Shown: one piece after another, positions 28,319 through 32,232 of the stretch | Position numbering within the stretch: position 1 is the stretch's first letter | Layout: each line of letters starts with the position of its first letter | Origin: an uncultured Phycisphaeraceae bacterium | Lineage (GTDB): Bacteria; Planctomycetota; Phycisphaerae; Phycisphaerales; UBA1924 | NCBI GenBank assembly: GCA_937899905.1 | Contig: CALCCF010000113.1 | Coordinates: 1-54,844, forward strand | Direction: 5' to 3' | DNA length: 54,844 nt | The notes under the pieces: model-generated | Seen by the model: only the letters and a program-made list of their open reading frames with translations | Databases searched by the model: none | What the model was told of the DNA's origin: nothing | Made by a program: the position numbers and the translations under genes

Positions 28319-30505
<2,187 letters not shown>

Positions 30506-30532: not shown

Positions 30533-31408
30533 GTGGCAGAGGCACACATCATCGATGGGAAGGCCCTTGCGGCCAAGTTTCGCCGGGACATCGCGACCCG
30601 CGTGGAGGCCCTCAAGGCCCAGGGCCGTCCGGTCCGCCTGGACGCGTTGCTCGTAGACGACGGCGACAGCGCCGCCCGGCAGTACGCCGACAGCCAGCGG
30701 CGCACGTGCGAGAAGCTGGGCATCGAGTATCGGCTTCACAGCCTGTCGATGGCATCGGGCTTCGACGAGATCGCCGGCCGCGTGCTGCTGCTGAACACAA
30801 AGGCCGAGTGCCACGCGATCATGGTGCACCTGCCGATGCCCGATGGCGTGGACGCCTACGAGGTGCAGCGGCGAATCGACCCTGATAAGGACGTCGAGGG
30901 CGTCAACCCGGCCAACATCGGCAACGTCGTGTACGGCCGCAGCAGCCTCGCCCCGTGCACCGCTCTGGCCACGCTGCGGATGGTCAAGTCCACCGGCATC
31001 AACCTCGCAGGGGCTCGATGCGTGGTCGTTGGTGCCGGAGATGTCGTTGGCAAGCCGATCGCGGTGCTGCTCATGCGAGAGGAGGCCACCGTCATCAGTT
31101 GCAACGCCGACACACATGGCATGCAGGAACTCGCGCGATCGGCCGACGTGCTGATCGCCGCCGCGGGTGTGCCCGAGCTAGTGCGCGGCGACTGGGTGAA
31201 GCCCGGCGCGATCGTCGTCGACGTCGGCGTCAATCGCGTCCAGCAGGGCGACGGCTCGACCACGACCGTTGGCGACGTCGCATTCGACGAAGTCAAAACG
31301 GTCGCGGCCCACCTCAGCCCGGTGCCGGGCGGAGTTGGGCCAATGACCGTTGCGATGCTCTTGCGGAACGTGGTCGCCGCCGCAGAGGGCGGCGTGAGCG
31401 ACCTCTAG
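30533..31408 (+). CDS. folD: FolD-like methylenetetrahydrofolate dehydrogenase, catalytic residues replaced
   Basis: A 291-residue FolD-family protein from GTG 30533. The fold is clear: AEAHIIDGKALAAKFRRDI, IDPDKDVEGVNPANIGN, CVVVGAGDVVGKPIAVLLM, GAIVVDVGVN and LSPVPGGVGPMTVAMLL. The residues needed for the bifunctional enzyme differ. The Lys of YxxxK (human Lys56) is Q55 in Y51-A-D-S-Q55; the Gln of the QLPLP motif (Gln100) is H99 in VHLPMP; the Asp of DVDG (Asp125) is E122. CTP of the folate site is CTA and the usual GRS is GAG. It may be a monofunctional dehydrogenase or have changed substrate; cyclohydrolase activity seems unlikely. Divergent from ligA. Confidence 0.8.
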   Translation: MAEAHIIDGKALAAKFRRDIATRVEALKAQGRPVRLDALLVDDGDSAARQYADSQRRTCEKLGIEYRLHSLSMASGFDEIAGRVLLLNTKAECHAIMVHLPMPDGVDAYEVQRRIDPDKDVEGVNPANIGNVVYGRSSLAPCTALATLRMVKSTGINLAGARCVVVGAGDVVGKPIAVLLMREEATVISCNADTHGMQELARSADVLIAAAGVPELVRGDWVKPGAIVVDVGVNRVQQGDGSTTTVGDVAFDEVKTVAAHLSPVPGGVGPMTVAMLLRNVVAAAEGGVSDL

Positions 31409-31429: not shown

Positions 31430-32101
31430 TTACGGGCAGCCGGCGTCGAACTCGTTCTGGAACGCCAGGAAGTCGAAGATGGTGAGGCTGCCGTCGCCGT
31501 CGAAGTCGGCGAGCGGATCGCCGGCGTCGAACAGGTTCTGGTACTCCAGGAAGTCGAAGATCGTGAGTGCCCCGTCGCCGTCGAGGTCGGCCGGGCAGTC
31601 GGCCTCGACCGTCACGATGATCGAGCCGGTCATGCCGCGGTGGCCGGTGACGCGGCATGTGTAGTAGTACTGGCCCGCGTCGCCCACGCCGGGCGTCCAC
31701 TCGATGAAGTCATCGGTGGGCGCAGGATCGGCGGTGAAGTCCTCGATGGGCTTGAGCGTTGAGGCATCGATCACGCCGCCGTCGGTGGTTTCACGGCGGT
31801 AAGAGCCGTCGGTACCCGAGACGGGCAGCGTGTCGTCGGTGATGACGAACGGGTGTGCGCTGGAGATGCGGCGGAAGCGGTAGGTCTGGCCGGCGACCAG
31901 GATGAATGTCGGGTCGACGATGTCCTCGAAGCTGCCACCGGAATCGCTCCAGTTGAACGTGTAATCGCTCGCGCCGATGTTGTCGAGCGTGAACTCGACG
32001 CCGCCGGGTACGCGGTAGATGTTCGGCTCGGGCTGGGTGGTCTGGGCGAGCGCGGGGGCGGCGGCGACGGCCGCGATCAGCAGCGGGGCGGTACGCAACA
32101 T
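31430..32101 (-). CDS. Secreted cupredoxin with GC-type dockerin tail
   Basis: A 223-residue exported protein with signal peptide LRTAPLLIAAVAAAPALAQ; ATG 32101 follows a GGAGAG site. Residues about 28-163 form a plastocyanin-like domain with a full set of type 1 copper ligands: H83 in SSAHPF, C149 in YYYTC, H154 and M157 in TGHRGM. The C-terminus holds two dockerin-like calcium repeats (DLDGDGALTIFDFLEYQNLF and DFDGDGSLTIFDFLAFQNEF) and ends DAGCP. It would be a copper electron carrier or copper-binding protein fixed to the cell surface. Its tail is very similar, also at DNA level, to that of 13547-14506. Convergent with folD, 21 bp apart. Confidence 0.85.
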   Translation of the reverse strand: MLRTAPLLIAAVAAAPALAQTTQPEPNIYRVPGGVEFTLDNIGASDYTFNWSDSGGSFEDIVDPTFILVAGQTYRFRRISSAHPFVITDDTLPVSGTDGSYRRETTDGGVIDASTLKPIEDFTADPAPTDDFIEWTPGVGDAGQYYYTCRVTGHRGMTGSIIVTVEADCPADLDGDGALTIFDFLEYQNLFDAGDPLADFDGDGSLTIFDFLAFQNEFDAGCP

Positions 32102-32232
32102 GGGGTCTCTCCATTCTTCTCGGGATGGGGCTTGCGTTCTGTCATGTGGCATAGGTGTACTACACCGCGCCGCGTTGCAACGCGCGGGCAGAATTACTGT
32201 GTTCGGGGCGTGGGGGATTCCGCTCGTGCGGC

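Follow-up and report, generated by a model that had tools for sequence, protein, structure and literature searches.

A FolD homologue with Gln, His and Glu at the Lys, Gln and Asp positions of the bifunctional enzyme, proposed as a monofunctional methylene-THF dehydrogenase

The folD-type gene at 30533-31408 (+ strand) of the window, i.e. of the whole stretch of 54,844 nucleotides that was analysed, encodes a protein of 291 aa (P0001) that has Gln, His and Glu where bifunctional FolD has its catalytic Lys, Gln and Asp. The changes of Lys to Gln and of Asp to Glu are linked and mark a whole FolD clan (Q-x-E, here Q/E), within which the position of human Gln100 is variable. P0001 is probably a monofunctional 5,10-methylene-THF dehydrogenase that is partnered by an FchA-type cyclohydrolase.

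The protein and its active site

The reading frame starts with GTG and its product is a full-length FolD homologue. Both FolD domains of Pfam, PF02882 (THF_DHG_CYH_C, 191.8 bits) and PF00763 (THF_DHG_CYH, 86.6 bits), match above the gathering cut-off over almost their complete length, which places the protein in the FolD family. The AlphaFold2 model of P0001 (mean pLDDT 95.5, pTM 0.92) has the FolD fold, as FolD and MTHFD1 structures rank at the top when this predicted model is searched with Foldseek (C. jejuni FolD 3p2o, TMq 0.90; human MTHFD1 9isl, TMq 0.92). Among the best 25 of the 30 NCBIfam models matched, P0001 reaches the cut-off of no FolD model, the best score being 271.5 bits against a cut-off of 396. 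Since the FolD models look lineage-specific, this shortfall is weak evidence against bifunctionality. Members of the Q/E clan are probably annotated as bifunctional, because the NCBIfam models matched by P0001 are so named. On the 5' side folD is flanked by a ligA-like gene in the opposite direction (28319-30493) and on the 3' side by a convergent cupredoxin-like gene (31430-32152, − strand), both named by inspection, so that folD lies in no obvious operon. The cupredoxin-like protein looks secreted and carries two DxDGD dockerin-like repeats close to its C-terminus; a similar dockerin-like end was seen in a protein on contig C102 of the same genome (L244:9756-11525:+), again by inspection.

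In human MTHFD1 the folate lies stacked on Tyr52 and is bound at its pterin head by Asp125; Lys56 and Gln100 support hydride transfer, and Lys56 may in addition transfer a proton in the cyclohydrolase step (PMC3368264; PMC6443876). Ser49 is named as a further, possibly catalytic, active-site position (PMC6443876). Simulations of MTHFD2 assign the Lys more to binding in the dehydrogenase step, and could not exclude a catalytic role of Lys in the cyclohydrolase step (PMC9173628).

The first-pass annotation had equated Lys56, Gln100 and Asp125 with Q55, H99 and E122 of P0001, and this assignment is confirmed. HMMER alignments to FolD of E. coli (5o22, and 5o2a, which is the Q98H mutant and so has His at 98 already) and of C. 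jejuni (3p2o) place K54 at Q55, Q98 at H99 and D121 at E122, leaving E. coli Y50 unchanged as Y51, and the MAFFT columns for the three positions agree. The Lys, Gln and Asp set of bifunctional FolD is thus absent from the equivalent positions in P0001. The codons are also as clear as had been claimed: Gln55 is CAG at 30695-30697 (human K56, E. coli K54, the cyclohydrolase Lys), His99 is CAC at 30827-30829 (human Q100, E. coli Q98) and Glu122 is GAG at 30896-30898 (human D125, E. coli D121), all on the + strand. Tyr51 (TAC, 30683-30685, +) keeps the Tyr of human position 52 and E. coli position 50, and the position of human Ser49 is occupied by Ala48 (GCC, 30674-30676, +). Misalignment of the three positions was rejected on the concordance of HMMER and MAFFT. 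Sequencing error is excluded because the residues are conserved in the family and in its sisters: all 32 genomes typed in this family read Y-Q-H-E, and so do 17 of 17 and 2 of 2 of those typed in two sisters within the order. The idea of a pseudogene was rejected too, as the residues are conserved in the genus, the family and the sister families, the frame is open and the structural model is of high confidence.

The Q/E clan and its pairing with FTCD_C

A dehydrogenase-only FolD would need another cyclohydrolase, as the first-pass annotation pointed out, and the host genome (3.63 Mb, 95% complete) contains a candidate for it. The PF00763 search of this genome gave a single FolD match, so that a second FolD was rejected, and no match was found there to formate-THF ligase (FTHFS/Fhs) or to the methanopterin cyclohydrolase Mch (PF02289), the marker searched for the methanopterin pathway. 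One FTCD_C gene is present. It lies on contig C102, at L032:1402-2058:-, and is not a neighbour of folD; its product of 218 aa matches PF04961 with 135 bits and is stand-alone, i.e. a separate FchA-type protein that has no formiminotransferase domain. PDB relatives of the C102 protein are 1o5h, 1tt9 and 7vg4 (E 3.7e-16), the last being named methenyltetrahydrofolate cyclohydrolase in the PDB. With 83.3 bits against a cut-off of 275 it does not pass the NCBIfam FchA equivalog NF045657 and is divergent; fchA genes that adjoin folD in other genomes stay below this cut-off as well (212.7 bits in G222, 147.7 at L289 and 127.9 at L293). The PurH domain is present in the host genome, and PurH requires 10-formyl-THF.

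The class was sampled with 397 genomes, 380 of which gave a match in a search with P0001. FolD typing covered 194 of these, a non-random set picked for spread and for suspected disagreements. Among the 210 FolD copies of these 194 genomes 133 are Q-x-E and 73 are Y-K-Q-D; the remaining four comprise one Y-R-L-E copy, one Y-E-Q-D copy and two that are incomplete. Wherever Gln stands in place of the Lys, Glu stands in place of the Asp (133 of 133 copies), and Lys goes with Asp in 73 of 73. The Gln position of the 133 Q/E copies is occupied by His (75), Gln (43), Asn (8), Met, Ser and Leu (2 each) or Tyr (1), and one of the 75 His-type copies has Phe at the Tyr position. The Y-E-Q-D copy (L221) is the second FolD of G176, which carries a Q/E FolD besides; here Lys54 is replaced by Glu, and Gln98 and Asp121 are kept. 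Two genomes have a response-regulator receiver domain and a Q-Q-E FolD in one ORF, with the receiver domain N-terminal (G244, L198:970-2391:+, by Pfam; G384, L202:1003-2391:+, by inspection), and both also carry a K/D FolD and give no FTCD_C match.

A FolD tree was computed by a quick method and without the three diagnostic columns from 182 of the 288 longer rows, partial copies and rows at least 72% identical to a kept row having been dropped. In this unrooted tree a single branch (SH-aLRT 98) separates the 96 Q/E rows, together with Y-R-L-E, from the rest. The state changes once on the tree, and the Q/E copies are one clan. Other positions distinguish it as well: at the position of human Ser49 all 84 K/D rows have Ser, whereas 71 of 96 Q/E rows have Ala or Gly; Gln112 of P0001 is shared by 87 of 96 Q/E rows, the K/D rows having mostly Ile, Leu or Phe there; and Ala146 is conserved in 94 of 96 Q/E rows.

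FTCD_C was found in 274 of the 397 genomes, and a genome is said here to lack FTCD_C when it is absent from these 274. An FTCD_C domain is present in 126 of the 133 genomes that carry a Q/E FolD, and 2 of the other 7 have a canonical FolD. Genomes with Q/E FolD only have FTCD_C in 115 cases and lack it in 5, as compared to 5 with and 53 without among the 58 K/D-only genomes. Where both FolD types are present, 11 genomes have FTCD_C and 2 do not; the 3 genomes with partial or odd FolD copies only all have it. Fisher's exact test on the single-type genomes gives p 2e-33, a value that takes no account of relatedness and is not to be read literally. The Q/E change falls on one branch of the gene tree, so the class counts are not independent and the association is inflated by related genomes. 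The contrast is plainest in the order of the host. All 79 genomes of families f1, f4 and f5 have FTCD_C (the match in G344 being weak, E 4e-4), and all 51 typed ones are Q-H-E; none of the 19 genomes of f2 and f3 has FTCD_C, and all 19 are K-Q-D. Formate-THF ligase occurs in only 5 of the 79 genomes of f1, f4 and f5, once weakly, and FolD plus cyclohydrolase is thus the apparent route to 10-formyl-THF in the rest. The two traits also switch together at shorter distances. Within one genus G146 has Q/E FolD and FTCD_C, whereas G158 has K/D FolD and lacks FTCD_C; in family f10 a single genome, G086, has K/D FolD without FTCD_C and carries formate-THF ligase, the 9 other typed members being Q/E.

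FTCD_C occurs also in the formiminotransferase-cyclodeaminase of histidine breakdown, and for this reason a subset of the genes was read. The domain is stand-alone in 20 of 20 Q/E genomes, hand-picked from listed places in ten families (f1, f4, f6, f8, f10, f13, f14, f15, f21, f24), with a formiminotransferase domain neither in the same frame nor elsewhere in the fetched stretch; at least eight Q/E genomes of f7 and f21, picked for long-looking frames, have it solely in a fused, histidine-type enzyme, and neither number is a rate. These eight (G136, G160, G204, G212, G299, G176, G358 and G302) are 84 to 99% complete and none is among the genomes listed with an FTHFS match. Pairing with a stand-alone FchA fails in them, and the cyclodeaminase domain would have to serve as their putative cyclohydrolase; one such fused gene of f7 lies at L365:1050-2540:+. 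FTCD_C is missing from five Q/E-only genomes, namely G092 (79% complete), G163 (58%), G178 (53%), G162 (67%) and G117 (93%), the last of which has formate-THF ligase (Fhs). Conversely, FTCD_C is present in five K/D-only genomes. It is solely of the fused type in G142 and G229, and in G319 it is fused at the place read, one of two; G334 is 76% complete. The fifth, G337, has a stand-alone FTCD_C; since it is 88% complete, a Q/E FolD may be missing from the assembly. In two genomes of f18 and f21 (G239 contig C10, G089 contig C51) a K/D FolD lies near an FTCD_C gene with a frame of 644 and 592 aa, respectively, which suggests a dedicated FolD for histidine breakdown.

Gene order provides a further link. 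The fchA gene is found immediately 5' of a Q/E folD in four genomes, namely G222, G146 and two Omnitrophota (L289, L293). In G222 and G146 fchA (207 aa) overlaps a Q-M-E folD by one base, and formate-THF ligase is a few kilobases away; in G222 folD is followed on the 3' side by a glutamate-synthase-like oxidoreductase and then by a gene that is MetV-like by inspection and has no NCBIfam match. When named genomes were scanned with a Q/E alignment, 80 loci were obtained, of which 9 are Q/E: one in Planctomycetota, three in Omnitrophota, one in SAR324, three in Mesorhizobium and one in Hyphomicrobiales. With our own HMM, built from five proteins, FchA was detected in the fetched flanks of 2 of the 9 Q/E loci versus 0 of the 71 others. 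Genome-wide, FTCD_C is present in 4 of 9 Q/E versus 3 of 41 other genomes among the first 50 of the 80 loci in listed order. Each of the four named Q/E genomes in which FTCD_C is present gave a single FolD match, and the five without it each have at least one canonical Y-K-Q-D FolD besides. With FTCD_C or a canonical FolD in all nine, none of this set depends on Q/E FolD alone.

Some loci deserve mention in their own right. Beside the fchA-folD pair at L245 and L246 there are genes that by inspection resemble a hexulose-phosphate synthase/RraA fusion and a phosphohexuloisomerase, i.e. formaldehyde-linked sugar genes next to a C1-folate cluster. The Q/E FolD of SAR324 (L253) lies between dimethylglycine/sarcosine dehydrogenase-like and Rieske oxygenase-like genes (by inspection), which suggests a role in betaine demethylation. 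A Q-Q-E folD of family f14 (L333, G043) is located just 3' of formate-THF ligase and of a gene that by inspection is methylene-THF-reductase-like. Paenibacillus mangrovi (G423) has a 498-aa ORF (L369:969-2465:-) with FolD and a C-terminal FTCD_C domain by Pfam; in its FolD part Q98 is replaced by Glu and Lys and Asp are kept, and there is a separate canonical FolD in the genome. In a Bipolaricaulota genome (L262/G409) the sole FolD match is Y-K-E-D, with the same Q98 to Glu change, and a stand-alone FTCD_C gene is present.

Proposed division of labour and rival explanations

We propose that the FolD-fold enzyme would oxidise 5,10-methylene-THF to 5,10-methenyl-THF with NAD(P)+; preference for NAD or NADP is not distinguishable from the FolD loop sequences. 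For hydride transfer the folate would still be held in place by the retained Tyr51 and by the Glu122 carboxylate. The methenyl-THF cyclohydrolase activity is presumably lost in P0001 because Gln55 takes the place of the Lys that this step needs, His99 that of its partner Gln, and Glu122, with its longer side chain, that of the pterin-binding Asp. The separate FTCD_C-family, FchA-type enzyme encoded on contig C102 would take over the intermediate from FolD and hydrolyse methenyl-THF to 10-formyl-THF, which would then feed PurH.

In E. coli FolD the K54N change leaves about 19% of dehydrogenase and no detectable cyclohydrolase activity, and Q98H leaves about 8% and about 1%, respectively (PMC5688156). 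K54N cells grow very slowly and are carolacton-insensitive (PMC5688156). The proposal of a monofunctional dehydrogenase, made already in the first-pass annotation, gains support from these mutants, which lose cyclohydrolase and keep part of the dehydrogenase, and from the pairing of Q/E FolD with FTCD_C, which holds in the majority of the class genomes that were typed. The published mutants are single changes to N and H, unlike the Q/H/E set of P0001; the simplest inference from them is that a natural Gln/His/Glu enzyme, adapted over a long period, acts as a dehydrogenase only.

It is improbable that the Q-x-E enzyme is still bifunctional, using Gln55, His99 and Glu122 together with clan-specific neighbours, and that FchA is accessory or belongs to the histidine pathway. 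Gln112 and Ala146, as conserved positions of the clan's own, would fit such an enzyme, as they indicate a site that is re-organised and not decayed; so would the eight Q/E genomes with only the histidine-type fused FTCD, and G117, which lacks FTCD_C at 93% completeness. Against this, the single K54N change abolishes detectable cyclohydrolase in E. coli (PMC5688156), FTCD_C co-occurs with the clan and adjoins folD in four genomes, and the named Q/E genomes without FTCD_C carry a canonical FolD in five of five cases.

That cyclohydrolase was lost and not replaced, with spontaneous hydrolysis of methenyl-THF being fast enough and FTCD_C being otherwise employed, we hold to be quite improbable. 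Carolacton-resistant E. coli without cyclohydrolase do survive, which the authors attribute to spontaneous hydrolysis, but the K54N strain grows very slowly (PMC5688156). Moreover, the co-occurrence of FchA with the clan and the gene neighbourhood speak against an unreplaced loss.

Some planctomycetes have methanopterin genes, which counts for another pterin, tetrahydromethanopterin, as the substrate instead of folate. This substrate, considered also in the first-pass annotation, found no support and is hardly credible: Asp125, the pterin-edge binder described as invariant (PMC6443876), is indeed Glu in P0001, but there is no Mch match in the host genome, for which the methanopterin reading was set aside, the best fold matches of P0001 are folate enzymes, and the partners elsewhere are FchA-type, formate-THF ligase and, by inspection, methylene-THF-reductase-like proteins.

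Returning to a dehydrogenase paired with FchA, a wider generalisation can be offered tentatively. FolD may comprise two old clans, of which Gln/x/Glu would be an ancient dehydrogenase-only one that always draws on an external cyclohydrolase, be it FchA, the cyclodeaminase domain of an FTCD or a canonical FolD as second copy. Because the tree has no root, the two-step FolD could even be derived, having arisen from a one-step dehydrogenase with FchA as its partner.

FolD is the textbook example of a bifunctional enzyme, and it is a drug target. If our reading is true, a whole clan, ranging over the class of the host and, among named genomes, over Planctomycetota, Omnitrophota, SAR324 and rhizobia, is expected to lack an activity promised by the family name. 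Genomes that lack Fhs would then be predicted to reach 10-formyl-THF by way of FchA, and K54 and D121 would be a simple first sequence test for one versus two activities. Natural insensitivity to carolacton is also predicted for the clan, because E. coli K54N is insensitive (PMC5688156).

Comparison with known systems

P0001 shares both Pfam domains, the Tyr and the fold with the bifunctional enzymes of E. coli (1b0a, 5o22) and with the DC domain of human MTHFD1 (1a4i), at TMq 0.86 to 0.92 and about 37% identity in structural alignments. It differs from them by Gln/His/Glu in place of Lys/Gln/Asp and by Ala in place of Ser49. The E. coli K54N and Q98H (5o2a) mutants are changed at two of the positions that are changed in P0001, Q98H being identical in kind; they are lab-selected single changes with impaired dehydrogenase, whereas the P0001 set is natural and conserved. 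Yeast Mtd1 is a monofunctional dehydrogenase of the FolD superfamily. Its structure (1edz) is remote, the weakest of the 27 PDB sequences matched by P0001 (E 3.6e-15), and the likeness is best taken as an analogy.

Separate dehydrogenase and cyclohydrolase are known from Methylobacterium, as MtdA and Fch. The C102 protein is homologous to 7vg4 (E 3.7e-16), which we take to be the Methylobacterium FchA; on the dehydrogenase side P0001, in contrast to MtdA, has both FolD Pfam domains. The FolD of Clostridium perfringens is reportedly (Aluri, 2016) a dehydrogenase only, with FchA supplying the cyclohydrolase. That system consists of FolD, FchA and Fhs, while the host genome of P0001 gave no Fhs match. 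In the open-access library that was searched we found no description of a Gln/x/Glu FolD clan, and nothing on point for K56Q or for Phycisphaerae with FolD/FchA. The principle of a dehydrogenase-only FolD with FchA is thus already known and the Q/E clan looks undescribed; what looks new here is the clan, its linked residue signature and the rule of its pairing with FTCD_C.
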